A stretch of DNA of 64,000 bases from Arenicola marina (taxonomy: Eukaryota; Annelida; Polychaeta; Arenicolidae): positions 12,469,574-12,533,573 of the forward strand of contig OZ025248.1 in assembly GCA_964019135.1 (NCBI GenBank), in the 5' to 3' direction. This document shows positions 10,512-63,430 of the stretch, one piece after another. The notes below the pieces were generated by a model. That model did no database searches, was not told the origin of the DNA, and saw only the letters and a list, made by a program, of their open reading frames with translations. Position 1 is the first letter of the stretch. Every line of letters begins with the position of its first letter. The translations under genes and the position numbers were made by a program.

Positions 10512-10634
10512 CTAATTGAGTGGCCCGGCGAAGTGTGGCCACCCCTGCAGCAGGCGGTAGAGGGCGTTACCGGGGCAGGATGTGGATACGCCGTCACGGT
10601 GGCCATGGAGAGTGTAAGATGGCGACACGTAACC
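10512..10634 (-). CDS. triple-SH3b PGRP, exon 13 (last exon)
   Basis: Encodes GYVSPSYTLHGHRDGVSTSC and then PGNALYRLLQGWPHFAGPLN and a TAG stop. It carries the second zinc His, the catalytic-site Thr and the Cys ligand. Confidence 0.93.
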   Translation of the reverse strand, partial: GYVSPSYTLHGHRDGVSTSCPGNALYRLLQGWPHFAGPLN

Positions 10635-13600
10635 CTGCAGAGACAGGCCAATCATTTAGATCAATTGATGCGAAACAGTATTGTCACCCGTCTTGCCGCC
10701 GTCACTGCTAAAAACAGCATGGGCATAGAGTTAAGTCATGAATCAAAACAGTTATAAAGTCCATGCAAGAGATCGACCAATAAGTCCTGATTATGGCATT
10801 TGTGTCGAGACGGCTGGGGATATAATTGGTACAATCTCCTATCTTGTCAGAGTGTTTTGAAGCATTGTGCTGCGATACAGTTATCTCACGCGAGAAGGCG
10901 AGTGCATGGCGGGGCAGCATTATATCATTCTGCGGAAATAAACCATCGCACCATCGACCATTAGCCAGAACGACATACATGAGAGAATTAAATGACATCT
11001 AGTAATATCTAAATATATTCTCCGGCGATATCGCGTCACCACACTCACCAAATCCACGCCGCATTGAATCAGATTCCTGACGGTGTCCAGCGCCACCTGG
11101 CGGGGGGTTTCGCTGGTGAACGAGCCAATCATACAGATGCCAAGCGCCGTGGGATTCCACTCTCGCGCATGCGCCCCCTTGACGCGCCACCCGCGACCCT
11201 CGTACGCCTGGCCGTCTCCCCCGACCAGGAAGTTGTAGCCGATGTCCACCCACCCTGGATAAAGATTAGGTGTGAAACTAAACCATGCCTTCATTTCAAA
11301 GTCACAAACAGGCAAAACGGTTCCAAACTAAACAACGACTGTATAGCAATTCGCACAGACGGCCTATTCAGAAGGCGCGTCAAAATGATCAAAATAATCT
11401 TGTGTTCGGGGAATATTTTTCAACCGCGACCACTTGTCTAACACAGAACAACTTATTCAGCTATGCCACGATATCTGCTGCTACAGGGATGGAGATTGTT
11501 ATCGAAACTAATTAATAAATCAACTGGTTTAGTAGCCTTGTCCACGAAGTCTTCATCACCCACCGTTGTTGTCCATGTGGTACCTCTGGATGCCCTTGAC
11601 AACAGACTTGCAGCTGCTCTCACTGGTGCATGCAGCGCCCTCGGAGTGATGAATAAAGACCTAGCGGCAGAAACATCCGGTCGTCGGGTATCACGCGGTG
11701 ACCATGAGAGGCACAACATTAGAATCACGATAACCTACAGCCACGTGGTCATGATAGAACAACGGCGAAGACCAGGAAACCAATCATCTTCAACCATTGT
11801 CGTCCTATGATTGATAGAGAACACGGTCCAAGACCTTACTTTGAGATATTAACTATATTTCTGTCTGTGGTTTTCTGTTTTGTCCCGGGAGTAAAGACAC
11901 ATTGATTCTCACTAGACTTCTAGCACGTATGGGGTATATATATAGGATAAAGCGTCTTCAAGGGCAGGACAAGGTCGAACATTGTGTAGTGTTGGCCCAG
12001 CAAGCATTAGGTCATAGCTGTTTTCCAATCCCATCCCAGTGTTAGTCTCATCCCATGCATTCAGTTGACATTATAGAAATAGACACTATAAAGATAGAAT
12101 TCTCCCCGCCCCGCCAGCATATGTAAGTAACTTTCGACCAGCCAAGCCCGTTATAAATCGAACTGGCCACCGACCTTAACCCTACTTTTGCCGCCGAAAG
12201 TAACTCTTAGATGGCAAACCTCAATTATAGCGCAAAATCAAGCAGATGGCGCGTGGAAGTTCCAAGTGAGCTTACCCAATTGAACACGTTATTAACTAGT
12301 AAATTTTCAATCCCAGCTGTTTAAAATGTAATTTCCTAGGCGAATATGCATGTAATGAGGTAATAAGGTAAGCACGTTCATATATTAAATGTTCACGCCA
12401 ACCTGGCAGACACATAGTTATAATAACAAACAACAATGTTACCTTGCCCATCTACGAATTCGATCTGTCGATGGGCCGTCGGAATGTTTTGGGAAAAGGA
12501 AAGGTTGATATCCTAAGGCATTCGACAGATCAAGCGCCCACAGGCAGACAGAAACCCAGACAGACAGAAACCCAGACAGACTTAACTTCGTCTTGACAAT
12601 TTAACTGGGTGGCTGTTACTGACCCTGGGGACTGGTGTTCGCAGCACGGAGACTCCACGTGGGTTCCTTGCTCCCCAAGCGCTGCGTGAGACCACATGCG
12701 CGCCAGAACACCCTGCAAGACAACAAACATAACGATTCAATCACCGGGTTCATTAATATACACAATACTGCAATTCGAGGTAATATACACAATACTGCAA
12801 TTCCTGGTAATATACACAATACTGCAAATCCTGGTAATATACACGATACCGCAATTCCTGGTAATATACACAATACTGCAATTCCTGGTAATATACACAA
12901 TACTGCAATTCCTGGTAATATGCACAATACTGCAATTCCAGGTAATATACACAATACCGCAATTCCTGGTAATACACAATACCGCAATTCCTGGTAATAT
13001 ACACAATACTGCAATTCCTGGTAATATGCACAATACTGCAATTCCTGGTAATATGCACAATACTGCAATTCCTGGTAATATGCACAATACTGCAATTCCT
13101 GGTAATATACACAATACTGCAATTCCTGGTAATATGCACAATACCGCAATTCCTGGTAATATACACAATACTGCTATTCCTGGTAATATACACAATACTG
13201 CAATTCCAGGTAATATACACAATACTGCAATTCCTGGTAATATACACAATACTGCAATTCCTGGTAATATGCACAATACTGCAATTTCTGGTAATATGCA
13301 CAATACTGCAATTCCTGGTAATATACACAATACTGCAATTCCTGGTAATATGCACAATACTGCAATTTCTGGTAATATGCACAATACTGCAATTTCTGGT
13401 AATATGCACAATACTGCAATTCCTGGTAATATACACAATACTGCAATTCCTGGTAATATGCACAATACTGCAATTCCTGGTAATATGTACAACACTGCAA
13501 TTCCTGGTAATAAACACAATACTGCAATTCCTGGTAATATGCACAATACTGCAATTTCTGGTAATATGCACAATACTGCAATTCCTGGTAATATACACAA

Positions 13601-16600
13601 TACTGCAATTCCAGGTAATATACACAATACTGCAATTCCTGGTAATATGCACAATACTGCAATTTCTGGTAATATGCACAATACTGCAATTCCTGGTAAT
13701 ATACACAATACTGCAATTCCAGGTATTATACACAATACTGCAATTCCTGGTAATATGCACAATACTTCAATTCCTGGTAATATACACAATACTGCAATTC
13801 CTGGTAATATGCACAATACTGCAATTTCTGGTAATATGCACAATACTGCAATTCCTGGTAATATACACAATACTGCAATTCCAGGTAATATACACAATAC
13901 TGCAATTCCTGGTAATATGCACAATACTGCAATTCCTGGTAATATACACAATACTGCAATTCCTGGTAATATGCACAATACTGCAATTCCTGGTAAGATG
14001 CACAATACTGCAATTCCTGGTAATATGCACAATACTGCAATTCCAGGGACACACATTTTGTTACCCGGCCGATACGGACATTTGCTCCGCTCCACATTCA
14101 CCTATCGGGGGCGAGTCTGCCAGTGGTCAGTTGTACAAGTCAATTGGGGAGCTGACTGATCCGGCTACGGAGGACAAGTGCACACGGCAATGGCCATCGT
14201 CATTGTCAGTGATCATGTAACTAGCATACCACGGCTTCCTGCTTCTCCCTGCTGCACATTATTCAATCATTGATTAACTAAACACATAAAATAAACGTAA
14301 ATACACTCTCAACACTCCACTGACCCAGATGGTTTGCTTGACGGCGTGATAAAAACTTGCTTCGAAAGCAAGTCGATTGAAGATGTAATATCAGCTTCAG
14401 TACAAACGCCTTAGGCCTTCCACAATTAACAGGCAAACAGCTGCTCTCGAGCGAAAGACACCGTTATACGCAAACTGGTACACGTCGGTAGCGGTAACAA
14501 CAGGTACACCAGGCAAAGGAGGAAACGACAGGAAACCACGCGTGCATCATTATATCTTACAGTAACACGTATCATATACATGTACGAGTAAGTGGCACTA
14601 CTTAGAAGCGTCTGAGCGTCAAGGGTGAGGTGTGTCTGCCGCGGGCGATGGGGGTGCCTACCTGCCGGGGCGGGGCCGGGTGGAGGGCGGGGGCGCGTAC
14701 CTGCCGGGGCGGGGCCGGATGGGGGGCGGGGGTGCGTACCTGCCGGGGCGGGGCCGGGTGGAGGGCGGGGGTGCGTACCTGCCGGGGCGGGGCCGGATGG
14801 GGGGCGGGGGTGCGTACCTGCCGGGGCGGGGCCGGGTGCGGGGCGGGAGGTGCTACAGCTGCTGTCTGGGGACGCCTGGAGCCAGTCGTCAGCCATCCAT
14901 CCAGTCTGGAAATATGAAGCGTAATTATAGAATTATATTACGCTCATGATTTATACACCTTTCAGCCTCTAAGCAGCGACCAGCCTCTATGCAGCGACCA
15001 ACCTCTATGCAGCGACCAGCCTCTATGCAGCGACCAGCCTCTATGCAGCGACCAATCTCCATACAGCGACCAGCCTCTATGCAGCGACCAGCCTCTATAC
15101 AGCGACTAGCCTCTATGCAGCGACCAGCCTTTATACAGCGACCAGCCTCTATGCAGCGACCAGCCTCCACACAGCGACCAACCTCCACACAGCGACCAAC
15201 CTCTATACAGCGACCAACCTCTATACAACGACCAACAACTATACAGCGACCAACCTCTATACAGCGACCAACCTCCATACAGCGACCAACCTCTATACAG
15301 CGACCAGCCTCCATACAGCAACCGGACTCTATGCAGCGACCAACCTCCATACAGCGACCAGCCTCTATACAGCGACCAGCCTCTACACAGCGACCAACCT
15401 CCATACAGCGACCAGCCTCCATACAGCGACCAGCCTCCATACAGCGACCAGCCTCTATACAGCGACCAGCCTCCATACAGCGACCAGCCTCCATACAGCG
15501 ACCAGCCTCTATACAGCGACCAGCCTCTATACAGCGACCAGCCTCTATACAGCAACCGAACTCTATGCAGCGACCAATCTCTATACAGCGACCCGCCTCT
15601 ATGCAGCGACCAGCCTCTATGCAGCGACCAGCCTCTATACAGCGACCAACCTCCACACAGCGACCAGCCACTATACAGCGACCAACCTCCATACAGCGAC
15701 CAGCCTCCATACAGCGACCAGCCTCTATGCAGCGACCAGCCTCCATACAGCGACCAGCCTCTATGCAGCGACCAGCCTCTATGTGGCGACCAGCCTCCAC
15801 ACAGCGACCAGCCTCCATACAGCGACCAGCCTCTATGCAGCGACCAGCCTCCATACAGCGACCAGCCTCTATGCAGCGACCAGCCTCTATGTGGCGACCA
15901 GCCTCCACACAGCGACCAGCCTCCATACAGCGACCAACCTCCATACAGCGACCAGCTTCCATACAGCGACCAACCTCTATACAGCGACCCGCCTCTATGC
16001 AGCGACCAGCCTCTATGCAGCGACCACCCTCTATACAGCGACCAACTTTCACACAGCGACCAGCCTCTATACAGCGACCAACCTCCATACAGCGACCAGC
16101 CTCCATACAGCGACCAGCCTCTATACAGCGACCAGCCTCTATACAGCGACCAGCCTCCATACAGCGACCAGCCTCTATACAGCGACCAGCCTCTATACAG
16201 CGACCAGCCTCCACACAGCGACCAGCCTCCACACAGTGACCAGCCTCCACACAGCGACCAGCCTCTATACAGCGACCAGCCTCTATACAGCGACCAGCCT
16301 CCACACAGCGACCAACCTCCACACAGCGACCAGCCTCCACACAGCGACCAGCCTCTATACAGCGACCAACCTCCATACAGCGACCAGCCTCCACACAGCG
16401 ACCAGCCTCCACACAGCGACCAGCCTCCATACAGCGACCAGCCTCTATACAGCGACCAACCTCCATACAGCGACCAGCCTCCACACAGCGACCAGCCTCC
16501 ACACAGCGACCAGCCTCCACACAGCGACCAGCCTCTATACAGCGACCAACCTCCATACAGCGACCAGCCTCTAAACTTTTTCTCATGTCTAAGATAAGTA

Positions 16601-19600: not shown

Positions 19601-22600
19601 ACCGTGGGCTGTATATACAAACCAGACACAACCATCTGCCCAATCTCATCACCGTAGGCTGTATATACAAACCAGACACAACCATCTGCCCAATCTCACC
19701 ACCGTAGGTTTTATATACAAACTAGACACAACCATCTCCCGAATCTCACCACCGTAGGCTGTATAAACAAACCAGAAACAACCATATTCCGAATCTCACC
19801 ACCGTAGGCTGTATATACAAACAAGACACAACCATCTGCCCAATCTCATCACCGTAGGCTCTATATACAAACCAGACACAACCATCTGCCCAATCTCACC
19901 ATCATAGGCTGTATATACAAACAAGACACAACCATCTGCCCAATCTCACCACCGTAGGCTGTATATACAAACAAGACACAACCATCTGCCCAATCTCACC
20001 ATCGTAGGCTGTATATACAAACAAGACACAACCATCTGCACAATCTCACCACCACAGGCTGTATATACAAACAAGACACAACCATCTGCCCAATCTCACC
20101 ACCGTAGGTTGCATATACAAACAAGACACAACCATCTGCCCAATCTCACCACCGTAGGCTGTATATACAAACAAGACACAACCATCTGCCCAATCTCACC
20201 ACCGTAGGCTGTATATACAAACAAGACACAACCATCTGCCCAATCTCACCACCGTAGGCTGTATATACAAACTAGACACAACCATCTGCCCAATCTCACC
20301 ACCATAGGCTAGTACGGGATGGTTTAAAGAGATTGACTCAACTTACGTGTGTTCCGGACGTTGTGGTTCTCGGCATTTGTGCAGTAACACCGCGAAGTCC
20401 CAACGGCCCCTGCGAGAAAGACGCGGGCGTTAATGAAATCAGTTGTCATAACTAGATTGCATTTCATCGGCACGAAACAACCATTTGATCCATGATTTGA
20501 TGAACTTGCGTATGCCTCGCCTCAAATCCTTTTACATATTTAAGCGATATTACGCTTTTGCGATCGAATAAAGGACTATTTATGACCGAACTGTAATTGG
20601 TGGACACCAATTACAGTTCTGTTCAAGACAGAAATACAATGTATTAACTCATACTTAACTAGAACAGAGTCTTTGGGGGCAATCGATTACCTGTTGATAT
20701 ATAAATTGAACAAAGCTGGGTAATTATTAAACGGGATTTCGAAATGAATATTAATTTTGCACTTTGAAATTAGTCTGACAACGATTACCTTGGCAACGAC
20801 TTGGAATGGAAACTGCCAACCAATTGTTTGCCATCCACGCACTCTGAAGGAAAAGAAAAGAGAACGGTAACATCGTGGTGAACTTATCACGCCCCATTAT
20901 CGCCCATTACGGTCCATAATCACCATCACGGTGACTCCTAACCGTACATCTTCGTCCACAGCATCGCCCATCACGGCCATTTATCGCCCGTCATCGCCCA
21001 TCATTGCCTATCACGGCCAGTTATCGCCCATCACGGCCTATTATCGCCAGTGACCGCCCATCTTGCCCCGTTATCGCCCATCATCTCCCATTACGGCCAA
21101 TCATCGCCCGTCATCGCCCATCTTCGCCCAACAGCGCACATCACGGCCCATCATCGCTCATCATCGTTCTTCATCGTCCAACAGCGCCCATCTTGACCCG
21201 TTATCGCCCATCATCACCCATCACGGTCCATAAGGGCCCATCACGGCCCATCATTGCCCATCATTGCCCATCATCGCCCGTCACGGCCCATAATGGCCCA
21301 TCATCGCCCATCACGGCCCATCATCGCTCATCAGCACCCATCATCGCCATCTCGAACCGTTATCGCCCATCATCGCCCGTCTTCGCCCATCATCGCCCAT
21401 CACGGCCCGTCATCGCCCATCATCGCCCATCATTGCCTATCACGGCTAATCATCGCCCATCATCGCCCATCAGCGCCCATCACGGCCCGTCATCGCCCAT
21501 CATTGCCTATCACGGCTAATCATCGCCCGTCTTCGCCCATCATCGTTCATCATCGCCCATCTTCGTTCATCATCGCCCATCATCGTTCATCATCGCCCAT
21601 CTTCGCCCAGCATCGCCCATCACGGCCATGATCGCCCATCACGGCCATGATCGCCCATCACGGCCATGATCGTCCATCACGGCCATGATCGCCCATCACG
21701 GCCATGATCGCCCATCACGGCCATGATCGCCCATCACGGCCATGATCGCCCATCACAGCCATGATCACCCATCACGGCCATGATCGCCCATCACGGCCAT
21801 GATCGCCCATCACGGCCATAATCACCCATCAAGGCTCATCATCGTCCATCATCGCCCATCACGACCCATCATAGCCCATCACGGCCCATCACGGCCCATC
21901 ATCGCCCATCACGGCCCACCATCGCCCATCACCGCCCATCACGGCCCACCATCGCCCATCACGACCCATCATCGCCCATCACGGCCCACCATCGCCCATC
22001 ACGACCCATCATCGCTCATCACGGCCCACCATCGCCCATCACGACCCATCATCGCCCATCACGGCCCACCATCGCCCCTTGCGGTCCACCATCGCCCATC
22101 ATCGCCCATCACGGCCCACCATCGCCCCTTGCGGTCCACCATCGCCCATCATCGCCCATCACGGCCAACCATCGCCCCTTGCGGTCCACCATCGCCCATC
22201 ATCGCCCATCACGGCCCGTCATAGCCCATCACGGCTCGTCATCGCTTATCACGGCCCACCATCGCCCATCATCGCCTATCGCGGTCCACCATCGCCCATC
22301 ATCGCCCATCGCGGTCCACCATCGCCCATCATCGCCCATCACGACCCATCATCGCCCATCGCGGTCCATCATCGCCCATCACGGCCCACCATCGCCCATC
22401 GCGGTCCATCATCGCCCATCATCGCCCATCACGGCCCACCATCGCCCATCACCCGCCCACCATCGCCCATCACGGCCCACCATCGCCCATCACGGCCCAC
22501 CATCGCCCATCACGACCCATCATCGCCCATCACGGCCCACCATCGCCCCTTGCGGTCCACCATCGCCCATCATCGCCCATCACGGCCCACCATCGCCCAT

Positions 22601-46491: not shown

Positions 46492-46603
46492 ATGATTCTC
46501 GCCCTGTCACTGTGTTTCGCCCTGTTGAGTGCGGCGAGCGCCGCTCCGCCCGTCGACAGCTGTCTGTGTCTCACCGGAAACTCCGTCAACGTCAGAGACG
46601 CCC
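46492..46603 (+). CDS. single-SH3b PGRP, exon 1
   Basis: Signal peptide MILALSLCFALLSAASAA and then CLCLTGNSVNVRDA. The donor is GTGAGT, phase 1. Its joining to exon 2 across 8.4 kb is supported by phase and by the identical design of the 60878 gene. Confidence 0.88.
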
Positions 46604-49600: not shown

Positions 49601-52600
49601 TCACTGGCACCCCCTATCTGATACAGACACCCCGTCACACCAGGGGGTGGAGTCACTGGCACCCCCTATCTGGTACAGCCCCCCCCCCCCATCACACCAG
49701 GGGGTGAGATCATTGCTAATCTATCTGATACAGGCACCACGTCACACCAGGGGGTGGGGTCACTGGCACCCCCTCTCTGATACAGACATCCCGTCACACC
49801 AGGGGGCGGGGTCACTGGCACCCCCTATCTGGTACAGCCCCCCCCCCCATCACACCAGGGGGTGAGATCATTGCTAATCTATCTGATACAGGCACCACGT
49901 CACACCAGGGGGTGGGGTCACTGGCACCCCCTATCTGGTACAGTCCCCCCCATCACACCAGGGGGTGAGATCACTGCTACTCTCTATCTGATACAGGCAC
50001 CCCGTCACACCAGGGGGTGGGGTCACTGGCACCCCCTATCTGATACAGACACCCCGTCACACCAGGGGGTGGAGTCACTGGCACCCCCTATCTCATACAG
50101 ACACCTCGTCACACCAGGGGGTGAGATCACTGCTACTCTATCTGATACAGGCACCCCGTCACACCAGGGGGTGGGGTCACTGGCACCCCCTATCTGATAC
50201 AGACACCCCGTCACACCAGGGGGTGGGGTCACTGGCACCCCCTATCTCATACAGGCACCACGTCACACCAGGGGGTGGGGTCACTGGCACCCCCTATCTG
50301 GTACAGTCCCCCCCCATCACACCAGGGGGTGAGATCACTGCTACTCTATCTGGTACAGGCACCACGTCACACCAGGGGGTGGGGTCACTGGCACCCCCTA
50401 TCTGGTACAGTCCCCCCCATCACACCAGGGGGTGAGATCACTGCTACTCTATCTGGTACAGGCACCCCGTCACACCAGGGGGTGGGGTCACTGCTACTCC
50501 CTATCTAATACACACACCCCGTCACACCAGGGGGTGGGGTCACTGGCACCCCCTATCTGGTACAGCCCCCCCCCCCCCATCACACCAGGGGGTGGGGTCA
50601 CTGCTACTCTATCTGGTACAGGCACCCCGTCACACCAAGGGGTGGGGTCACTGGCACCCCCTATCTGGTACAGTCCCCCCCATCACACAAGGGGGTGAGA
50701 TCACTGCTACTCTATCTGATACAGACACCCCGTCACACCAGGGGGTGGAGTCACTGGCACCCCCTATCTCATACAGACACCTCGTCACACCAGGGGGTGA
50801 GATCACTGCTACTCTATCTGATACAGGCACCCCGTCACACCAGGGGGTGGGGTCACTGGCACCCCCTATCTCATACAGGCACCACGTCACACCAGGGGGT
50901 GGGGTCACTGGCACCCCCTATCTGGTACAGTCCCCCCCATCACTCCAGGGGGTGAGATCACTGCTACTCTATCTGGTACAGGCACCCCGTCACACCAGGG
51001 GGTGGGGTCACTGGCACCCCCTATCTGATACAGACACCCCGTCACACCAGGGGGTGGGGTCACTGGCACCCCCTATCTCATACAGGCACCACGTCACACC
51101 AGGGGGTGGGGTCACTGGCACCCCCTATCTGGTACAGTCCCCCCCATCACACCAGGGGGTGAGATCACTGCTACTCTATCTGGTACAGGCACCCCGTCAC
51201 ACCAGGGGGTGGGGTCACTGGCACCCCCTATCTGGTACAGTCCCCCCCATCACACCAGGGGGTGAGATCACTGCTACTCTATCTGGTACAGGCACCCCGT
51301 CACACCAGGGGGTGGGGTCACTGGCACCCCCTATCTGGTACAGGCACCCCGTCACACCAGGGGGTGGGGTCACTGCTACTCCCTATCTAATACACACACC
51401 CCGTCACACCAGGGGGTGGGGTCACTGGCACCCCCTATCTGGTACAGGCACCCCGTCACACCAAGGGGTGGGGTCACTGGCACCCCCTATCTGGTACAGT
51501 CCCCCCCCCATCACACCAGGGGATGAGATCACTGCTACTCTATCTGATACAGACATCCCGTCACACCAGGGGGCGGGGTCACTGGCACCCCCTATCTGGT
51601 ACAGTCCCCCCCATCACACCAGGGGGTGAGATCACTGCTACTCTCTATCTGGTACAGACACCCCGTCACACCAGGGGGTGGGGTCACTGGCACCCCCTAT
51701 CTGGTACAGTCCCCCCCATCACACCAGGGGGTGAGATCACTGCTACTCTCTATCTGGTACAGGCACCCCGTCACACCAGGGGTGGGGTCACTGGCACCCC
51801 CTATCTGGTACAGTCCCCCCCATCACACCAGGGGTGGGGTCACTGGCACCCCCTATCTGGTACAGGCCCCCCCATCACACCAGGGGGTGAGATCACTGCT
51901 ACTCTCTATCTGGTACAGGCACCCCGTCACACCAGGGGGTGGGGTCACTGGCACCCCCTATCTGGTACAGTCCCCCCCCCATCACACCAGGGGGTGAGAT
52001 CACTGCTACTCTATCTGGTACAGGCACCCCGTCACACCAGGGGGTGGGGTCACTGGCACCCCCTAGCTGATACAGACACCCCATCACACCAGGGGGTGGG
52101 GTCACTGGCACCCCCTATCTCATACAGGCACCACGTCACACCAGGGGGTGGGGTCACTGGCACCCCCTATCTGGTACAGTCCCCCCCCCCCATCACACCA
52201 GGGGGTGAGATCACTGCTACTCTATCTGGTACAGGCACCCCGTCACACCAGGGGGTGGGGTCACTGGCACCCCCTATCTGGTACAGTCCCCCCCATCACA
52301 CCAGGGGGTGAGATCACTGCTACTCTCTATCTGGTACAGGCACCCCGTCACACCAGGTGTGGGGTCACTGGCACCCCCTATCTGGTACAGTCCCCCCCAT
52401 CACACCAGGGGTGGGGTCACTGGCACCCCCTATCTGGTACAGTCCCCCGTCACACCAGGGAGTGGGGTCACTGCTACTCTACCTGATACAGGCCCCCCGT
52501 CACACCAGGGGGTGGGGTCACTGCTACTCCCTATGTGGTGGGCATACAGGCATATGGTCCCATCAGCGGGTGGGAAAAGAAGCTGGCCGTGTGTGATGCG

Positions 52601-55600
52601 TGTGTGCAGCCGAACAACAATGAGTGATCAAATTCATATAACACCTCAACGATTGAATGGTATAGACACGCAAGCCATGCAGCCGAGCCAAGTCAAGCCC
52701 ACTATGGGGATCGTTTCACTTATGTACTTATACTTATATCTTATGACATTTGGTCATAGGGGAAAGTGGGGTAAAATGGGGACGCTAAGTTTTTTAGGCA
52801 ACTAGGATCAGTAAAACAGTGGCATAAGAAACATTAAACATTGTCATTTGACATTATAAGCCGACTGGCATGCCTTACCAATGACAAATACCAAAATTAT
52901 AATAAAAACAAAATAAAGGCTTAATTTGCCCCGTTTTACCCCATAGATGGGGCAATTTGGGGTCAGATTTGGGCAACATGGGGCCATTGTATAACGTGAA
53001 GTAATTAAAATAGGACCTAATGGCCATTCTGTCGTCGTTAATGAATAAAAAATGTTCCCCATGTCCTTGGGACTTCAAGATTAAATTGCAAGCATTTTTT
53101 GTCATATGTCATGGAGACGAGCTGAGAAATTAGATCAAAACTGAGAAAAATAACAAATCTTGGTTTATACTCGCATGTTGTTTCATACCGATTCCCCGTT
53201 TAGTGTCGAGTGCCAAATGATGTGCTGGTACAAAAGTATTGCGCCAGGCCAGACCACGTAACTATCGAGATATCACCCCAGCCCGTTATGCCCCGCGTCC
53301 CCATTTTGCCCCACGTTCCCACGCTCACACTGTTGATGATGTATTGCCAGGGGACAAATGAAAGAATACGTATTTGCATCGCAAATATCCGGAATGCTTT
53401 GTTGTTGTGTTGTTATGGTATATCATTTTACCCTGTACATTCACAATTAAACTATCATTGTTGCCACAATCTCGCTGCATAGATAAATTCGTATGACACA
53501 TCATCAATTGAGATATCGATACTAAAAAACACCTAGAGAAGATGGGTTCAATTTTGTGAACATATTTACCATAATTCCCCAAATACACGCTATAATTATA
53601 TGATCGGAAGCATACCTTCTTATTAAACAAAGGTATGTAAGTTTCAACACGTCTACGTCCGGGACATTGCCCTTATCTCAGAATTTGGCGGGGGTGATAG
53701 CGGCCTTAGGCCACCAGCTGATTTAAATATCCGGTCATACTAGGCAGTCTAGGCATGGCATCTGCCCATTTCGTTCCCATGATGCACGGTATATATTCAC
53801 GTTTCTATCAAGATAGCATTGCCTAAGTAAACCATGGCAAAATATAGACAATCATACTTGCAATGAAGTATCCATATCTGGTTAAAAAAACATATATTAA
53901 AAATATATATATATATATATATTGACGGATGTAGAATGTCTTATTGAACAAACGTATTTAAGTTTCGACATATCTCAGAGTAATTAAAGCCATAGGCAAA
54001 TCAATTTACATAGACATATCACTTTTGTTATTTAAAAATCCGGATTTCGCTATTTGAGGCCATCATCCGAATCCCCACTCCGGACACGCCAGGCAATGTC
54101 AGTGGCGTCTTGTCCCTCGATTTAATATTGTCAATGCAACATATCGCGGTCTGGCTCATGGAATGCTATACATGCTGAAGTGAGATCAAGAAGCCGTTAT
54201 CTGACGGGGTGGGGGGGGGGGGGGGGGCGGGGGGGGGGGCCGTGGGGGTCTGAGGAAACCAGCAACGTAAAAACGACCACAAAACGTAAAAACGAGCACA
54301 AACGTAAAAACATCATGGATCACAAACGTGAAAAAAATCACAAACGTAAAAACAATTGGATCACAAACATAAACATTGCCTGGTCAGAAACGCCAAACAA
54401 AAGTTACAAACCTAAAAGAAATTCACCAACGTAAAATAGAAAATTTTCCACAAACGAAAAACTTCAATTAACACAGAGGCGGGAATGACAAAAACAAATG
54501 ATACTCTGAATTCTATCTGATTTGAATCTACATGTATTTGAAACTTCACTATATGATTTTATATGTATTAATAACGTATGTGGGGTCCTCCTGGTCTTAT
54601 GTGTCCCTACTCGCCGTTCCACTCGCTACGTGGCGCCACACTGTGGGCCTTAAATCGAACCCCTATCCTGAAGCCGTGGGCCTTTTACTCCCTCTCTCAT
54701 CCCAATCCCTGATGCCTGCATGACCTCTAATCCCTAATGCCTGACCCATAACCTCCAATGCCTGACCCCTAATCATGGAGCCCCGATCTCTAATATCAGA
54801 CCCATAATCCACAATTCATAACGCCTAATCCACAATTCATAACGCCTAATCCCAATCTCTGACCCCTAATTCCTAATCACTGACCCCAAATCACCAGTTT
54901 TTGTTTTTGGTGGTCCCCAAAGCACTCACCACATTATGCTAGTTATTGGAGCTTAAGTTATATTTGGAAGGCCTTTGCTGGTAACGTTACACAATTAAAC
55001 TTCTTTTTGTCGGCAGCATGTGGTAATGTGATTGGAAGCGCCAGCATCGGCGCCTGTTATGGCTACCTTGGTGGGGAGAGCGTGTGCTCCCTGAGTGGCA
55101 CCGTGTACACCTGGTGGGAAGTCGACTTCGGCGGCACTGTAAGCAACCTTTCCTGCTCCTGCCCTCGCCTCGTATCCTGTAATCCACGCCAGCGAGCGCA
55201 CTCTTAACTGATTGACTTAGAGTTAATGACAGGCCACATACGAGAACTGTAAAATAGCAATTATTGTTTGAGCAGCCAGATGCCGAGTACCACGTAACTA
55301 AACGTCTAAATATTGTCATAACGGACACAGGTTCGCTCGCTGTTGTAGACTCTGAGGACTTTGAAGCGCCTAAATATTGAGTGCGGAGTGCGTTATGACA
55401 ATAATCGATCATTTTTTTTAAAGGTTTGAAAAAGAAGAATATACCTACCTGTAATCGAGCACTACTGGCATACCGTGCGACATGTGCGATGGTTGTAATC
55501 TCTGACGATTGTAATCCATGAAATTGTTACCAACAATGACATTCGTTGATTATTGTAAGCATATAATATAACATATAATGTTTCGTCTAAGGCACCCATA

Positions 55601-58600
55601 GGATTGTGTTTTCACCATACCTTTACAGTCTGGATGGATTACCAGCACTTACCTGGAAGTCGACTCGTCCTCGAGATGTGAAGGTAAAAACGCATAAATA
55701 CACATATGATGATCGACAAATTGTTTTTGTAGGATACATTGTATGGTAGATTTCCTTGAAAATTTGCCTTGATTTGTAACCATTTCCATGAAAGCATGTT
55801 TACACGGCAAAAAGATATAAACAGGTTCGCATTAAGCTAACACTAATATAAATAACTAATATCTTCATGGGCGTGTTGGCTGTACACGAACCACTATAAT
55901 ATTATACGAATATACGTCGCATGTTATAGTTGAAAACTTGTCCACAATAAACATATCTCATATCTTTCTCGCATATTAGGATGCAATTCTGTGAACATCA
56001 TCAGCCGAGCAGAGTGGGGAGCCCGCAATCCAACCAGTGTCACATACCTCAGCCCTCCTCTCCCTATGGTAAGATCACGTGCTTCGACCAGCGCCTAGTA
56101 GCACCCCCCCCCCCCCTCCCCCCTCTTCCTTCCATGCGGTGACTCATACTCCAGTCACTATTACTTAGTCTGTATCTTCCCTGCAACTCCATCCGTGTTT
56201 CAACTTCAAAACAGAATCTAAGATAGGAATAATTATTCGATTATGTTAAGTTTACCGGTTTAAAAGAGTTTATTCTTCAATATGACAATCTGTTGTCCTG
56301 GCTGTTCCACAACTCAGACCATTGATGATTTTACACGAAGACACGAAGCATGATGAAGATTATTGACGGTTTGAATCGTTTGTCCAGGTGTTTGTCCATC
56401 ACAGCGACGGATCTTCGTGCTACACGGAGAGCTCCTGCATCTCCCAGGTACAGGGCATCCAGGACTGGCACATGGATGGCAACGGTGAGTCTGGGGGTGG
56501 GGGTGCGGGTGGGGAGGGTGCTGGAGACCGGGGCTGAAGGGTTAGGGGGTGGACTAATCTGGCTACGGAGGTGAAGTTAGTGGGGTGGGCGTTTTATCGA
56601 AGAAATATGGGTACAAATCCGCGGGTGAATGTTGTAATACTGGAGGCTAAACGTCATTCCAATCTCATTCCTGTGCTGCCGTGCTAAACAGATGCACTCA
56701 TTACCCTCGCCTCGGTATAGTGTTCAATGGCCGAGAGATGGCAATGCGCGGTCACCCTTTTCAGGGGTGCCAGGGTATTGGTAAACGAACCACTGTCAGG
56801 AACCTCAGATTGCCCATTGCGTTCTCTGTCATTTCTCACCCCTGAAATGTTGCGATGTACCGCTTGAACATAGTGAGCAGAGGTTGTCACACTAGTGTTC
56901 TGCCCTTCCCCCTCCCCCAGGCTGGTCTGATATCGGCTACAACTTCCTGGTGGGAGAGGACGGTAACGCGTACGAGGGTCGCGGCTGGGAGCGCCAGGGG
57001 GCGCACGCCAGCGGCTGGAACGCGGATTCCTATGGAATCTGTGTCATTGGAACCTTCAGCTCCAACGTCCCCAACGCCGCGGCACAGGCCGCCGTGCAGA
57101 ACCTCATCCAGTGTGCCCTCAGCAGGGTGAGTAGCGTCCAGAACCTCATCCAGTGTGCCCTCAGCAAGGTGAGTACCGTCCAGAACCTCATCCAGTGTGC
57201 CCTCAGCAAGGTGAGTACCGTCCAGAACCTCATCCAGTGTGCCCTCAGCAGGGTGAGTACCGTCCAGAACCTCATCCAGTGTGACCTCAGCAAGGTGAGT
57301 ACCGTCCAGAACCTCATCCAGTGTGCCCTCAGCAAGGTGAGTACCGTCCAGAACCTCATCCAGTGTGCCCTCAGCAGGATGAGTACCGCCCAGAACCTCA
57401 TCCAGTGTGACCTCAGCAAGGTGAGTACCGTCCAGAACCTCATCTAGTGTGCCCTCAGCAGGGTGAGTACCGTCCAAAACCTCATTCAGTGTGACCTCAG
57501 CAAGGTGAGTACCGTCCAGAACCTCATTCAGTGTGACCTCAGCAAGGTGAGTACCGTCAAGAACCTCATCCAGTGTGACCTCAGCAAGGTGAGTACCGTC
57601 CAAAACCTCATTCAGTGTGCCCTCAGCAGGGTGAGTACCGTCCAGAACCTCATTCAGTGTGACCTCAGCAAGGTGAGTACCGTCCAGAACCTCATCCAGT
57701 GTGACCTCAGCAAGGTGAGTACCGTCAAGAACCTCATCCAGTGTGACCTCAGCAAGGTGAGTACCGTCCAAAACCTCATTCAGTGTGCCCTCAGCAGGGT
57801 GAGTACCGTCCAGAACCTCATTCAGTGTGACCTCAGCAAGGTGAGTACCGTCCAGAACCTCATCCAGTGTGACCTCAGCAAGGTGAGTACCGTCAAGAAC
57901 CTCATTCAGTGTGACCTCAGCAAGGTGAGTACCGTCCAAAACCTCATTCAGTGTGCCCTCAGCAGGGTGAGTACCGTCCAAAACCTCATCCATTGTGACC
58001 TCATCAAGGTGAGTACCGTCCAGAACCTCATTCAGTGTGACCTCAGCAAGGTGAGTACCGTCCAGAACCTCATCCAGTGTGCCCTCAGCAAGGTGAGTAC
58101 CGTCCAGAACCTCATCCAGTGTGCCCTCAGCAGGGTGAGTACCGTCCAGAACCTCATCCAGTGTGCCCTCAGCAAGGTGAGTACCGTCCAGAACCTCATC
58201 CAGTGTGCCCTCAGCAGGGTGAGTACCGTCCAGAACCTCATCCAGTGTGCCCTCAGCAGGATGAGTACCGTCCAGAACCTCATTCAGTGTGACCTTAGCA
58301 AAGTGAGTACCGTCCAGAACCTTATTCAGTGTGACCTCAGCAAGGTGAGTACCGTCCAGAACCTCACCCAGTGTGCCCTCAGCAGGATGAGTACCGTCCA
58401 GAACCTCACTCAGTGCCCTTAGCGGAGTTCTAAATAGCCCGTTTCGTTCGATGTGATACAACTAGGCAATGAACCACTAGGAACTTCGGATAACGTGTTT
58501 TGTGGATCATTTTGAACCGTCCATATTTGTTATATTATTATTTCGGACTGAAGCAATGTTAACCGAGTATGTGTCCAAAATCAGCAAGGCATATGGTCTA

Positions 58601-58989
58601 CAAGGGGTAAATGGCGACACGCGACACAGGCATATTTGAAAAATCGACATTCGACATTGACCCTCAAGTTCCGACACTGAGGATCTGAAAAATCGACAGA
58701 TTTTGGAAAAAACGACACTGAACTGAGCCAAAAATCGCCACGGAACGTCATGAAAAAGCGACATTTGACACTAAAAATAGAAAAATCGACAAAAAGGCCC
58801 CCCCCCCCAACCTTCCAGACCCCGAGGCATATAAACCTGGCAGGAGTACCATGTTTGTCTCTGTTACAGGGCGACATCACGGGATCCTACACCCTGCACG
58901 GCCACAGGGACGGCGTGGCTACCTCGTGTCCCGGGGATGCCCTCTACAACCTCATCAGCGGATGGCCCCACTTCGGCGGCCCCCTGTAA
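46492..58989 (+). CDS. secreted PGRP/amidase with one SH3b domain (7 coding exons)
   Basis: Exons 46492-46603, 55017-55138, 55629-55683, 55980-56068, 56388-56484, 56921-57126 and 58870-58989 join into 801 nt and 266 aa, GT-AG throughout. Layout: signal peptide about 1-18; SH3b 24-90 (CLCLTGNSVNVRDA, CGNVIGSASIGACYG, YTWWEVDFGGT, GWITSTYLEV); PGRP domain about 98-266. Predicted zinc and active-site residues are H130 (FVHHS), Y165 (DIGYNF), H239 (HGHRD), T245 and C247 (ATSCPG), so a secreted N-acetylmuramoyl-L-alanine amidase is expected. Intron 1 (8.4 kb) contains a 52-bp array. Intron 6 is largely a 42-bp array that repeats the exon 6 end and donor. A TATA box lies upstream and AATAAA follows the stop. 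The next PGRP gene starts 1.9 kb downstream in the same direction. Confidence 0.9.
46628..46656. promoter_or_regulatory. two CRE palindromes in an inverted pair just after exon 1
   Basis: GGTGACGTCAC and GTGACGTCACC, separated by TCTATT, together form a larger near-perfect palindrome starting 25 bp after the exon 1 donor. Enhancer function is possible but unproven. Confidence 0.45.
46657..47875. other. intron 1 sequence, nothing coding recognised
   Basis: Contains a C-run at 46826-46837. No SH3b-like exon was seen. Confidence 0.45.
47876..52535. repeat. large minisatellite, about 52-bp unit, about 90 copies, variable C-run
   Basis: The unit includes CACACCAGGGGGTGGGGTCA, CTGGCACCCCCTATCTGGTA and CAGGCACCCCGT or CAGTCCCCCCC. 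The terminal C-run varies from about 4 to 13 bases. It fills over half of intron 1 of the single-SH3b PGRP gene. G-runs occur on both strands. Confidence 0.95.
52757..53320. mobile_element. MITE-like element with about 26-bp inverted repeats
   Basis: The left end GGGGAAAGTGGGGTAAAATG (then GGGACGC) is mirrored at the right end by GCGTCCCCATTTTGCCCCAC (then GTTCCC) with two or three mismatches. Internal sequence repeats the theme (CCCCGTTTTACCCCATAGAT). There is no coding capacity. Target duplication is unclear. Confidence 0.75.
53321..55016. other. intron 1 sequence with low-complexity patches
   Basis: Holds an AT microsatellite (about 53905-53922), a long G-run region (54208-54240), degenerate CACAAACGTAAAAAC repeats (54270-54440) and 'CCTAATCCCTAATGCCTGAC' repeats (54720-54890). 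No exon was recognised before 55017. Confidence 0.5.
55017..55138 (+). CDS. single-SH3b PGRP, exon 2
   Basis: SH3b body: CGNVIGSASIGACYG ... YTWWEVDFGGT. The acceptor is TTTTTGTCGGCAG and the donor GTAAGC; 122 nt. Confidence 0.92.
55629..55683 (+). CDS. single-SH3b PGRP, exon 3
   Basis: SGWITSTYLEVDSSSRCE; 55 nt, with donor GTAAAA, ending in phase 1. Confidence 0.88.
55980..56068 (+). CDS. single-SH3b PGRP, exon 4
   Basis: GCNSVNIISRAEWGARNPTS and onward, the canonical PGRP start SRAEWGAR. It is 89 nt with donor GTAAGA. Confidence 0.93.
56388..56484 (+). CDS. single-SH3b PGRP, exon 5
   Basis: VFVHHSDGSSCYTESSC and onward, with the first zinc-ligand His. It is 97 nt with donor GTGAGT. Confidence 0.93.
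56921..57126 (+). CDS. single-SH3b PGRP, exon 6
   Basis: GWSDIGYNFLVGEDGNAYEG, RGWERQGAHASGWN and QNLIQCALSR. It is 206 nt, matching exon 12 of the minus-strand gene. The first donor (GTGAGT at 57127) is chosen because it gives this conserved size. Six more in-frame GT donors at 42-bp steps follow before a TAG at 57445. Confidence 0.88.
57088..58420 (+). repeat. minisatellite, 42-bp unit, about 32 copies, duplicating a coding splice donor
   Basis: The unit is CAGAACCTCATCCAGTGTGC, CCTCAGCARG and GTGAGTACCGTC. The first unit contains the real end of exon 6 (QNLIQCALSR) and its donor. Almost all later units keep GGTGAGTA. The 42-bp period keeps the frame, and the first in-frame stop is TAG at 57445-57447. 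Confidence 0.96.
58421..58869. other. remainder of intron 6, degenerate repeats
   Basis: 58610-58800 is a degenerate repeat around 'AAAAATCGACA...TTCGACA' followed by a C-run. It ends in the exon 7 acceptor TCTCTGTTACAG. Confidence 0.5.
58870..58989 (+). CDS. single-SH3b PGRP, exon 7 (last)
   Basis: GDITGSYTLHGHRDGVATSC and then PGDALYNLISGWPHFGGPL and TAA. It carries the second zinc His, Thr and Cys. Confidence 0.94.
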   Translation, partial: GDITGSYTLHGHRDGVATSCPGDALYNLISGWPHFGGPL

Positions 58990-59014: not shown

Positions 59015-59020
59015 AATAAA
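59015..59020 (+). terminator. poly(A) signal of the single-SH3b PGRP gene
   Basis: AATAAA lies 26 bp after the TAA stop, giving a very short 3' UTR. Confidence 0.75.
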
Positions 59021-59990: not shown

Positions 59991-59994
59991 GTGT

Positions 59995-60306: not shown

Positions 60307-60765
60307 TATTCCGTGTCATATGTACCTCCTAAAATAACTGCATAGCGCAACAGACGCCCGAGTGGCACCCATTAGGATGGCACATTTAGCAAACAAACCT
60401 AATTACCACCCACTGATTAGAATTTGATCCACTGGAGATAAACGAGAATACCCGACCGCATGGCTCTTATTGAACTTGGCACAAAATAACGACCATATCT
60501 AATCCATATACACAGACCTCTTGCCTTGTATTATAATTAAATATCACATATTGCCAAAATTCAAATCTATCTACTTTGCTAACCTACACTAATGCAAAGT
60601 AAAAAAAAAGTATTCGTGCTAGCAAATTTAGCAAAACATATTGCCTTATATTTCCATTTTATAGTTCATAAAAAATATAGGGCTTTCCTTCGCCCCGTTT
60701 TAACACAAGTACACGCTTGACAAATGTAACTCGAACAGCCACTTAGCAATAGGGCAATCGACACC
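60307..60765. other. intergenic / distal promoter of the partial PGRP gene
   Basis: AT-rich. No gene was recognised. Confidence 0.4.
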
Positions 60766-60769
60766 ATAT

Positions 60770-60788
60770 TGACCTTGGGCTGACCTTG
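60770..60788 (-). promoter_or_regulatory. paired nuclear-receptor half-sites (AAGGTCA direct repeat)
   Basis: TGACCTTG occurs at 60770-60777 and 60781-60788, so the minus strand reads CAAGGTCA twice in direct orientation, 11 bp apart. This is the extended half-site of ERR/NR5A-type receptors. It is 25-45 bp upstream of the TATA box, with an inverted CCAAT (ATTGG) at about 60798-60802. Function is inferred. Confidence 0.5.
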
Positions 60789-60812
60789 CGCCCTGCGATT
60801 GGTCTGATGCCT

Positions 60813-60818
60813 TTATAA
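60813..60818 (+). promoter_or_regulatory. TATA box of the partial PGRP gene
   Basis: TTATAA at 60813-60818, 60 bp before the ATG at 60878. The predicted start of transcription is near 60843. Confidence 0.65.
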
Positions 60819-60877
60819 GCAGCTTGTGCGAGGGCTGATAAGACATTTGCGAAGAAAAACTACACTGAAAAGTCGAC

Positions 60878-60986
60878 ATGCTGTTGTTCTTGGCTGTAAC
60901 CGTGTGTTTGGCATACTCCGTGACAGGCCAAGCCGCTGGCACCTGTCTTTGTCTGACGGGCAACGCAGTCAATGTTCGTGATGCAC
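60878..60986 (+). CDS. partial PGRP, exon 1
   Basis: Signal peptide plus CLCLTGNAVNVRDA. The donor is GTAAGT and the exon ends in phase 1. The open frame running on to 61339 is intron read-through. Confidence 0.9.
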
Positions 60987-63430
60987 GTAAGTCAGGAGGA
61001 AAAACGCTGAATATGAGTCTTACAATTGGGGAGAAAAGAAATATTCATAAACCCTGTAAAGATACGTTAACAAACAGGTGGAAGTTAAATCCGGCATCTG
61101 ACGATTCTGACTGGACGACTGATTGCCCTGTTCAACTGGGTGTTCAGTGTTTAGACGCTATGTATCCGGATTGGTTAATAAATCTGTACACTTTGTGGCG
61201 CGCTGTACTTAACAGCTCGAATGTAACAAATGGAGCTGATGTTTGTTCGCCTCAGCTGCGTAATACTTCAGAGCAACCAAATGAATATTTACAAACTGGT
61301 TGTTACAATGTTTACAAAGTCGACCCACAATCCATTTAGGCCCACGAAAACTGGTTTCGTACGTTCTGTAATGCTGAACTGAAGTAAGCATCGACATAAA
61401 CCACGCTTCCAATTTCACCTGCAAATAGAGAATAAATATTGTTTACAACGCTATTTAGGCCGCTAAAGCGGGGTTTATTCCGACTTATAATGATAAACGA
61501 GCATTAAGGTATGTAATTATGGGAGAGTCCAAGCAATATTTTCGACTATCAGACCGGTCACTGATACGATAAGTGTGGCCATGGAATTCCGCTTATTTTG
61601 GTGGCCGTATCAAGTGTCATGTGCATTGCGCTAACGACTATTGATGGCTTAGTATTGAGCAAATTATGGGTTCCCGCCAATGTTACAGTGATTGGCAGTG
61701 GCAGCGTGGTTTGTGGGTTCCAGCTAATGTTACAGTGATTGGCAGTGGCAGCGGGGTTTGTGGGTTCCAGCTAATGTTACAGTGATTGGCAGTGGCAGCG
61801 TGGTTTGTGGGTTCCAGCTAATGTTACGGAGATTGGCAGTGGCAGCGTGGTTTGTGGGTTCCAGCTAATGTTACAGTGATTGGCAGTGGCAGCGTGGTTT
61901 GTGGGTTCCAGCTAATGTTACGGTGATTGGCAGTGGCAGCGTGGTTTGTGGGTTCGAGCTCATGTTACGGTGATTGGCAGTGGCAGCGCGACTTGTGGGT
62001 TCCAGCTAATGTTACGGTGATTGGCAGTGGCAGCGCGACTTGTGGGTTCCAGCCAATGTTACAGTGATTAGCAGTGGCAGCGTGGTTTGTGGGTTCCAGC
62101 CAATGTTACAGTGATTAGCAGTGGCAGCGTGGTTTGTGGGTTCCAGCCAATGTTACAGTGATTGGCAGTGGCAGCGTGGTTTGTGGGTTCCAGCCAATGT
62201 TACGGTGATTTGCAGTGAGAGCGTAGTTTTAGGTTGCAGCCTGTGGTACGGTGATGTGGTTTGTGGATTCCCGTCTGTGGTACAGTGATGTGGTTTGTGG
62301 GTTCCAAACTGTGGTAGGCCTACATTGATGTGGTTTGTGGGTTGCAGCCTGTGGAAATGTGATTGGCAGTGGCAACAGCGGAGCGTGCTACACAGCCCTG
62401 GGTGGGTCGGTGACCTGTGACCTCAGCGGCACCACCTACACCTGGTGGCAGGTGGACTTCGGCGGCACCGTGAGTAGCTGTAGGGCCAGGGTTCACCGTG
62501 GGGGGGGGGGGGCGGCATATCTGGACCATTGCTAACGAACACGCCTCACGGGAAGACTTGCAGCAATGCTCTCCAAACAACACGTTTCAGAACGGGATGG
62601 CCTTGTGATTGGTGTCGCCCTCTGGCGAATATATCCTACATATTAGCGCCAGTGACGGTTTTAAAACGAGAGCGCAAATCCCGTTCAACCCGATAATATC
62701 AATCACTCGCTAACTAATGGTTTTTAAAACATTTTTGACCTATGTGTCACCAGAAAAGTAAGTTCCAAGGCGACCCGCATACCTGTCAAATAAACAAAAA
62801 TGAGAGTATGCGTGGGCCACTTAAGGGCTTTAAAACCAAGTATTTTAATGGATTTGCCGGGGAATATTGTTTATTCCGGTAGACTGACCCCGGCTCCAAG
62901 CTATATATGAGGAAAACCTCACTTTATCCTTTATGTCGTCCTAATCATTGATGTGAACGTTTCCTCTTGCCAGCCTGGCTGGATCGCCAACACCTATCTT
63001 AGCAACGAGCCCACCACCCGGTGCGCAGGTAAGACAGACACGCCATGTAACCAGGAGGTGCCACATACAATTACAGGAGTTAAAACGAATAATTTGAGGC
63101 GGTCATTCACATGAGAAATCGTTATTGACAACCTCTTGAAATTAATGACGTCTACCAGACATGCCAAAGCATCAAGAAGCCCAACGTTGGCTCTTTGAAC
63201 GTTGAACTAGTAATTTCATAGCCCGTCACCGTTTTGTTAACACTTTGCCACGCCCTGATTTTCAAAGATGTTTGTGTCCTGTTTGATATCAATGACATCG
63301 TGACAGTGTCCGTAACAACAACATGATGGCGCTCTTTGCAGGTTGTGACGGTGTAAACATCGTCAGTCGTGCCGAGTGGGGCGCCCGGGCCCCGACCAGC
63401 ACCACATCCATGCCCAAGCCAGTCCCCATG
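60878..63430 (+). CDS. secreted PGRP with one SH3b domain, 5' part (runs off window)
   Basis: Four exons (60878-60986, 62348-62469, 62974-63028, 63342-63430) join to 375 nt and 125 aa. They give a signal peptide (MLLFLAVTVCLAYSVTG), one SH3b (CLCLTGNAVNVRDA, CGNVIGSGNSGACYT, YTWWQVDFGGT, GWIANTYLSNEPTTRC) and the PGRP start GCDGVNIVSRAEWGARAPTS. Exon sizes and phases equal those of the 46492 gene, so it is a tandem duplicate. The zinc-ligand exons should lie beyond 64000 (exon 5 about 97 nt next), so catalytic competence cannot be judged here. Intron 1 holds a 47-bp array derived from the exon 2 boundary. Confidence 0.88.
61660..62347 (+). repeat. minisatellite, 47-bp unit, about 12 copies plus degenerate units, acceptor-bearing
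   Basis: The unit is GTGGTTTGTGGGTTCCAG followed by CTAATGTTACAGTGATTGGC and AGTGGCAGC. The real exon 2 boundary (TTTGTGGGTTGCAG, then CCTGTGGAAATGTGATTGGC) is the terminal member of the series. Intermediate, degraded units occupy 62220-62340. Confidence 0.92.
62348..62469 (+). CDS. partial PGRP, exon 2
   Basis: CGNVIGSGNSGACYT ... YTWWQVDFGGT. It is 122 nt with acceptor GTGGGTTGCAG and donor GTGAGT. Confidence 0.92.
62974..63028 (+). CDS. partial PGRP, exon 3
   Basis: PGWIANTYLSNEPTTRCA; 55 nt, donor GTAAGA, ending in phase 1. Confidence 0.9.
63342..63430 (+). CDS. partial PGRP, exon 4
   Basis: GCDGVNIVSRAEWGARAPTS and then TTSMPKPVPM. It is 89 nt with donor GTAACG. Confidence 0.92.

Follow-up and report, generated by a model that had tools for sequence, protein, structure and literature searches.

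The window, a stretch of 64,000 bases, contained three spliced PGRP genes (A, B, and C) with canonical splice sites and consistent phases. Gene A (10512–35897, minus strand) was a spliced open reading frame of 13 exons with GT-AG sites, and its last position, 10512, was the final base of the stop codon. Its 443-residue product had what looked by eye like a signal sequence, three SH3b-like modules, each encoded by exons s, a, and b, and a PGRP/Amidase_2 domain (PF01510, E = 1.7e-17). Gene B (46492–58989, plus strand) was composed of seven exons encoding 266 residues, with one SH3b-like module and a PGRP domain (PF01510, E = 3.1e-19). Gene C was represented by its 5′ part (60878–63430, plus strand), which comprised exons s, a, b, and N up to the donor of exon N at 63430; the remainder lay past the window end. 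The zinc ligands of catalytic PGRPs are His, Tyr, His, and Cys. Visual inspection of genes A and B showed HHS, GYNF, GHRD, and SCPG as candidate motifs for these ligands. The modules did not reach the Pfam cut-off of 27 bits for SH3b (PF08239), with 16.7 bits in gene C (SH3_3, E = 0.0087), 12.9 in gene A, and no entry listed for gene B. The modules are called SH3b-like only, on the basis of alignment to PGRPs that carry PF08239. No further spliced gene was found among ten pieces of the window scanned with Pfam. There were no Rfam matches at gathering scores and no NCBIfam match at E = 0.1, and, for a GPCR-like open reading frame, none of 8000 scored candidates reached E = 0.001.

The SH3b-PGRP proteins of gastropods and Owenia likewise have an SH3b-like module ahead of the Amidase_2 domain, and they shared 38–46% identity with gene B over 91–98% of its length. 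Gene A differed from these proteins in having three modules, and the modules of the locus differed in falling under the Pfam SH3_3 cut-off. The best listed named relatives spanning most of gene B came from Owenia, gastropods, a freshwater mussel, and a lobster; among all matches listed, environmental contigs supplied the nearest PGRPs. No cephalochordate was present among the named rows of the best 120 of 628 and the best 120 of 681 proteins, in which many rows were nameless. The best PDB matches were PGRP3 entries, which we take to be Branchiostoma proteins, and they matched mostly at the level of the PGRP domain.

Tandem Repeats Finder (TRF) gave 47 rows for the window, of which 29 were condensed into 17 arrays for the tests; the other 18 covered short stretches, none above about 110 bp, and were left out. 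Arrays covered 23,600 of the 64,000 bases (36.9%, in 13 masked stretches) and 61% of the span of gene A, in agreement with the shares of about 37% and 60% given in a sequence-only reading of this DNA. Of the 21 introns, all nine that measured at least 1.36 kb contained one of the 17 arrays. The remaining 12, which had none of them, were 222–963 bp in length, and one, intron N to mid of gene A, had a 41-bp TRF row. In gene A (minus strand), the array with a 27-bp unit in intron 3b to N (12754–14044) and the array with an 18-bp unit in intron 3a to 3b (14963–16573) were without a boundary match. No match to an adjacent boundary was observed, on the same strand, for the array with TRF periods of 20 and 50 bp in intron 2a to 2b (20886–24396), the two arrays with 37-bp and 30-bp units in intron s2 to 2a (25885–29348), and the arrays with 34-, 21-, and 64-bp units in intron 1a to 1b (31788–35330). 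The same was true of the 4.7-kb array with a 52-bp unit in intron s to a of gene B (R47879; 47879–52539, plus strand).

When the 17 units were scanned against the 43 splice boundaries, four arrays best matched their own adjacent boundary, and each sat on the intron side of it. The copied boundaries were the donors of gene B exon M and gene A exon 3b, and the acceptors of gene C exon a and gene A exon 3a. R57092 (57092–58415, plus strand) contained 31.5 copies of a 42-bp unit formed by the end of exon M of gene B (35 nt) and 7 nt of the intron; GT was retained in 28 of the 31 full copies, and AAG/GTGAGT in 19. R14650 (14650–14853, minus strand) contained 5.2 copies of a 39-bp unit across the exon 3b donor of gene A (CAG/GTACGC), which resulted in five tandem donors, in frame and open. 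R61667 (61667–62316, plus strand) had a 47-bp unit composed of the acceptor and the start of gene C exon a, which begins at 62348, in 12.2 copies accompanied by degenerate ones. R17064 (17000–20310, minus strand) had a 50-bp unit composed of the acceptor and the start of gene A exon 3a, which begins at 16937. Its copies, about 65 in number, belonged to an intron that was 97% array, and AG was retained in 49 of 53 pattern matches.

The boundary-scan scores of R57092, R14650, and R61667 were 69, 63, and 29, against null maxima of 15, 20, and 18, respectively. R17064 was the weakest of the four cases, with a score of 19 (null mean 7.6, s.d. 1.6, maximum 24, P = 0.002) and 42 identical columns of 63, as counted on the alignment. 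The other 13 arrays gave no boundary signal past the expectation of 43 tests each, the best P value (0.0027) belonging to a non-adjacent boundary. A reverse scan for copies of the 43 boundaries within 1 kb, which was independent of the choice of arrays, recovered the identical four boundaries with scores of 40, 38, 24, and 17. The next score was 12, and no fifth, decayed duplicate was detected among the 43 boundaries. The agreement of the two scans bore out the earlier claim that the three paralogues contain four arrays that each arose independently from a boundary. The four different boundaries of that claim were found as two donors and two acceptors, but both acceptor cases were the paralogous boundary of SH3b exon a, so that three kinds of boundary, not four, were involved. 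Each of these two acceptor arrays was nearest to its own exon (29 versus 15, and 19 versus 12).

Paralogous introns at the same position were free of arrays. In gene A these were intron M to C, of 414 bp, and intron s to a of module 1, of 222 bp; the third was intron b to N, with 296 bp in gene B and 313 bp in gene C. Because all four introns were array-free in paralogues, the introns are older than the arrays.

The pattern, which the sequence-only reading took to be undescribed, is already known from amphioxus and has a human parallel in CBS. Excerpts of two papers (PMC3087553, PMC3902484) describe amphioxus "mirages", minisatellites of exon-intron boundaries, in Adh, globins, troponin C, and PGBD5. 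The mirages of Adh3, the globins BflGb6 and BflGb9, and TnC involve 5′ and 3′ boundaries, with AG/GT in many units, and their unit lengths are 10–72 bp in Adh3 and 150–160 bp in the globins (excerpts of PMC3087553, which credits the Adh3 mirage to Canestro 2002). In PGBD5, 60- and 108-bp repeats cover splice sites (PMC3902484). These host genes are non-immune. As in the mirages, the units of 4 of the 17 arrays spanned a boundary of the host gene, at two donors and two acceptors, and AG/GT was kept in many, not all, units, as in R57092 and R17064. Unlike the amphioxus mirages, the four arrays lay in one three-gene cluster and reached about 65 copies, and no named match among those listed pointed to a cephalochordate host. 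The 31-bp VNTR of human CBS, c.1444_1467+7(16_21), is polymorphic in copy number (excerpt of PMC2630376). Its unit, as read from the name, is an exon end with 7 intronic nt (24 + 7, compared with 35 + 7 in R57092), and both arrays have tens of copies; unlike R57092, the CBS VNTR is a single locus with a 31-bp unit that is not divisible by three. Alternative donor use occurs at the CBS VNTR. Human segmental-duplication genes contain internal tandem repeats that average 4 copies of 30-bp units; half of these repeats lie in coding sequence and some at exon-intron boundaries (PMC2812944). Minisatellite growth in recent paralogues is shared with these genes, but their boundary cases were proposed to form novel introns, whereas pre-existing introns were filled here.

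The arrays are likely to be mirage-type minisatellites that arose by ordinary array birth and growth and were tolerated, as a property of the genome and not under immune selection, and the boundary arrays are probably a by-product of repeat growth rather than an immune device. A short stretch that chanced to straddle a splice boundary would have been duplicated in tandem, and replication slippage, together with unequal exchange, would have extended the duplicate into the intron. The outermost copy would stay the real splice site, with the remainder removed as intron. The other intronic arrays of the locus may have grown likewise, by a process that would be a property of the whole genome. The boundary origin would be recognisable because protein-level selection preserves the exon-derived half of copy one. 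Since 13 of the 17 arrays were without a detectable boundary origin, boundary seeding appears to be one starting point among several.

A considerably less likely reading is that splice boundaries are true hot spots, at which breaks linked to transcription or splicing (R-loops, stalled forks) seed tandem duplications. Random seed placement predicted 0.46–0.85 boundary arrays, compared with the four observed (P = 0.0008–0.007, post hoc). In a positional null, local copies of equal score were found at 4 of 43 boundaries and 40 of 1500 random positions (P = 0.027), and at another threshold at 3 of 43 and 9 of 1500 (P = 0.0022). The excess over chance was moderate; exceeding the prediction of uniform seeding, it may indicate a bias towards boundaries, with which the two strikes on the homologous SH3b exon-a acceptor, each array being closest to its own exon, are consistent. 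However, the numbers were small, the choice was post hoc, and the remaining 13 arrays showed no such origin. On the sense strand, the GC skew was negative in the two donor arrays (−0.44 and −0.13) and positive in the two acceptor arrays (+0.49 and +0.38), and R-loop orientation, with a G-rich sense strand, was rejected as a cause because of these mixed signs. None of the four boundary units folded better than its shuffles (z = 0.21, 1.82, 0.76, and −0.77), and hairpins or unusual unit folds were rejected on these unremarkable values. Repair-driven duplication at transcribed junctions, as suggested earlier, is possible but left no signal in skew or folding. Rather more doubtful is the wider proposal that minisatellites of this lineage truly originate at splice junctions, through junction-linked break and repair frequent enough to set the lengths of most long introns and, through the donor arrays, a repertoire of in-frame PGRP isoforms.

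It is improbable that the arrays form a diversity device, in which tandem donors yield in-frame isoforms with extra copies of protein pieces. These pieces would be a 14-residue part of a helix in the PGRP domain of gene B and, in gene A, a proline-rich linker of 13 residues. The units of both donor arrays (42 and 39 bp) are divisible by three with open frames, which two unconstrained unit lengths would both achieve in about 1 of 9 cases. Stop-free donors in open frame numbered 7 of 31 in gene B, with the real one counted, and 5 of 5 in gene A exon 3b. In a small local matrix, the AAG/GTGAGT donor of 19 of the 31 R57092 copies scored 11.6, compared with 9.4 for the real first donor, and exceeded each of the 21 other donors of the locus; with stronger inner donors in gene B, the mirage reading has to assume that the outermost copy is the one spliced. 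However, a stop codon in copy 9 shut the gene B frame past eight copies, and the acceptor arrays offered little. Of the upstream CAG sites, the only AG sites considered, 0 of 42 kept an open frame in gene C; for exon 3a of gene A the figure was 3 of 103, and these three stood close to the acceptor. The splice motifs were conserved no better than the rest of the unit, with column conservation in R57092 of 0.946 at the splice site and 0.958 in the remaining unit, and selection for diversity left no sign. For the amphioxus mirages, Adh3 and RT-PCR data were read by the authors as splicing undisturbed (excerpt of PMC3087553). What stands of the diversity mechanism raised earlier is the in-frame possibility at two donor arrays and three CAGs near one acceptor, and in-frame isoforms, as predicted from the reading frames, may be possible mainly at donor arrays.

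Inflation of the repeats by assembly error is very unlikely. Assembly is difficult where long arrays consist of near-identical copies, and one amphioxus mirage was apparently misassembled in a genome draft (excerpt of PMC3087553), but the copies here differed by ordered substitutions and showed higher-order periods, the units were distinct from array to array, and the window was without N. Least probable is intron birth from tandem exonic copies (the Rogers AGGT model), which fits the AG/GT in the units, was proposed for amphioxus globins (excerpt of PMC3087553), and has a potato gene case through a duplicated intron-exon stretch (excerpt of PMC4974935), but is contradicted by the presence of the four introns, array-free and at the same position, in paralogues.

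If minisatellites arise preferentially at splice junctions, the growth and gain of introns and the appearance of cryptic splice sites would share one testable cause. The locus is a dense case, with four traced events in three paralogues and array-free sister introns as built-in controls. If the boundary arrays arose by chance, the locus exemplifies minisatellite-filled introns, and mirages are probably not restricted to lancelets.

Mirages show length instability between haplotypes, even somatically; in the single assembly used here, internal duplications suggest turnover. R57092 had a higher-order period of 168 bp, the 30-bp array in intron s2 to 2a of gene A (R26396) contained a 930-bp internal duplication, and R47879 contained an exact 324-bp repeat, 1,046 bp apart. 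These periods and the exact repeat suggest that the turnover inside the arrays was recent.

The window contained three related PGRP genes, whose exons were placed from tblastn searches with queries taken from the window and from inspection of the junctions. Gene A (35897 to 10512, minus strand) was composed of 13 exons encoding 443 residues, in the order of an apparent signal sequence (judged by eye), three SH3b-like modules, and an amidase domain. Each module was split over exons s, a, and b, and the amidase domain was encoded by exons N, mid, M, and C. The three modules of gene A (10512–35897) repeated one three-exon pattern with matching phases, which makes internal duplication their probable origin. 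Gene B (46492 to 58989, plus strand) had 7 exons and 266 residues, and gene C started at 60878 and left the window after exon N (63430). GT was present at 22 of 22 donors of the locus and AG at the acceptors, and the phases were consistent. Amidase_2 was detected by Pfam in genes A and B, and the products of all three genes look secreted. The modules are putative SH3b domains, assigned by resemblance; the SH3_3 score in gene C was below the Pfam cut-off (16.7 vs 27 bits). Relatives that covered 91–98% of gene B in alignments were present in gastropods, Owenia, a freshwater mussel, and a lobster, and several carried PF08239.

In order to avoid picking of cases, a forward scan was designed in which the units of 17 arrays (condensed from 29 TRF rows, with 18 rows of short stretches left out) were aligned to 43 splice boundaries (40 nt per side), using 1,500 random non-array windows as a null. 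Four of the 17 arrays, each labelled by an approximate position, matched their own neighbouring boundary. The two donor matches were R57092 with gene B exon M (score 69 against a null maximum of 15) and R14650 with gene A exon 3b (63 against 20). The two acceptor matches were R61667 with gene C exon a (29 against 18) and R17064 with gene A exon 3a (19, P 0.002, where the null had a mean of 7.6, an sd of 1.6, and a maximum of 24). The boundary was located inside the array in R57092 and R14650, so that their high scores partly restate the start of the array in the exon. Among the other 13 arrays, the best match (R31788 with a non-adjacent gene C boundary, P 0.0027) was unremarkable given 43 tests per array. 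A reverse scan, independent of the array choice, searched each of the 43 boundaries for copies up to 1 kb away and returned the identical four boundaries with scores of 40, 38, 24, and 17; no fifth boundary copy was found within this range, the next score being 12. The boundary-derived arrays of the sequence-only reading, two at donors and two at acceptors, were recovered by both scans, and the observation is real.

R17064 was the weakest case, with 42 of 63 aligned columns identical as counted on the alignment. Its match extended through the real acceptor and ~40 nt of the preceding intron, so the real exon 3a acceptor resembles a final, degenerate unit of the array. Each acceptor array was nearer to its own exon than to the paralogous exons (29 vs 15 and 19 vs 12), which points to probably separate origins at homologous boundaries.

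When seeds of the observed unit lengths were dropped uniformly on the present non-array sequence, 0.46–0.54 of 17 arrays were expected to straddle a boundary (P(≥4) 0.0008–0.0015), and 0.74–0.85 for the 13 arrays in genes (P(≥4) 0.0044–0.0074). Under the positional null, local copies were found for 4 of 43 boundaries and for 40 of 1,500 random positions (P 0.027), or at another threshold for 3 of 43 and 9 of 1,500 (P 0.0022). Because the question was chosen after the data had been seen, these statistics are suggestive of targeting of boundaries and fall short of proof.

Tandem repeats gave 47 TRF rows in the window. The 13 masked stretches summed to 36.9% of the window (23,600 bases), and arrays made up 61% of the gene A span, in agreement with the high repeat shares claimed earlier, and 57% of the intron sequence of genes A–C. 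Intron length was tied to array content in the three genes. The introns with one of the 17 arrays (9 of 21) were each at least 1,361 bp, and the 12 introns lacking these arrays were 222–963 bp, including one with a TRF row of 41 bp (12541–12581). By eye, the unit sequences in homologous introns were apparently unrelated, except that the two SH3b exon-a acceptor arrays had their exon-derived part in common.

Array-free counterparts were present for the M to C intron in gene A (414 bp), for the s to a intron in module 1 of gene A (222 bp), and for the b to N intron in genes B (296 bp) and C (313 bp). The array-bearing introns must thus have existed before their arrays, which argues against birth of introns from these arrays. 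The larger duplications inside arrays were recent. R57092 contained a 168-bp period and a 209-bp exact repeat, R26396 a 930-bp duplication and a 288-bp exact repeat, and R47879 an exact repeat of 324 bp spaced by 1,046 bp. Such duplications would be the expected product of array growth via slippage and unequal exchange. The 30-bp array R26396 (26396–29348) showed 96% identity at the 930-bp lag and was crossed by two stop-to-stop frames on the plus strand (919 and 1,010 codons).

Repeats in the human CBS gene affect splicing. In R57092 (57092–58415), GT was kept in 28 of 31 full copies and lost in three; the donors were AAG/GTGAGT in 19 copies, AGG/GTGAGT in 8, and AAA/GTGAGT in 1, the slash marking the exon–intron junction. 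A matrix derived from the other 21 donors gave a score of 11.6 to AAG/GTGAGT and of 9.4 to the real first copy, the highest among the 21 being 10.8. The commonest inner donor outscored every other donor of the locus, and a preference for the first donor would not be expected from these scores. The 42-nt unit kept the frame, and because of a stop in copy 9 an open protein would result from only 7 of 31 donors, with 0 to 98 added residues. In R14650, 5 of 5 donors were open and in frame, giving exon lengths of 88, 127, 166, 205, and 244, and each copy would add 13 residues of proline-rich linker. When CAG sites alone were considered, an open frame was found at none of 42 upstream CAGs of the gene C acceptor and at 3 of 103 for gene A exon 3a, which lay 63, 126, and 153 nt away from the real acceptor. 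Conservation in R57092 was 0.946 over the nine splice-site columns and 0.958 elsewhere, and gave no sign of selection on the sites. Given this copy usability and column conservation, the proposed diversity device would at most be a property of a few sites, chiefly in the two donor arrays, and is without positive support.

The array type is already known. Literature coverage comprised open-licence papers on minisatellites or other tandem repeats at splice boundaries, in molluscs or annelids, or in intron gain, and on PGRPs with SH3b. Boundary minisatellites of amphioxus genes are called mirages, with troponin C named and PGBD5 added to the cases (PMC3902484). Boundary repeats have also been reported in human segmental duplications (PMC2812944). 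The human CBS VNTR, c.1444_1467+7, has 16–21 copies (PMC2630376); its name was read as 24 exonic and 7 intronic nt, whereas R57092 has 35 and 7. Published cases of intronic minisatellites include the metallothionein gene of an earthworm and a kinase gene of an abalone, with no mention of boundary-derived units in the retrieved passages. Among the titles and abstracts listed, none described boundary-derived arrays in a PGRP gene or in a spiralian. The immune reading is unsupported.

In the PGRP domain, the top-scoring fetched proteins were 58% identical to gene A and 65% identical to gene B, and closer matches to Branchiostoma entries would be predicted for a lancelet host. No cephalochordate was present among the named entries of the best 120 of 628 and the best 120 of 681 relatives, and this absence from the best-listed relatives suggests that the arrays may be mirages outside cephalochordates.

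Besides the PGRP genes, the only coding signals in ten pieces of the window searched with Pfam came from a GPCR-like ORF of one exon and from two fragments of retroelements. The rhodopsin-like GPCR ORF (4817–5944, minus strand) matched 7tm_1 with an E value of 4.8e-07 and 30.0 bits (cut-off 30.5), and no homologue at E 0.001 was found among 8000 candidates scored. A 30-bp array (4510–4708) was located ~110 bp beyond its stop. The retroelement remnants were a reverse transcriptase (42953–43336, plus strand; RVT_1, E 2.8e-11) and a zf-RVT piece (2737–3171, minus strand; E 5.6e-07).
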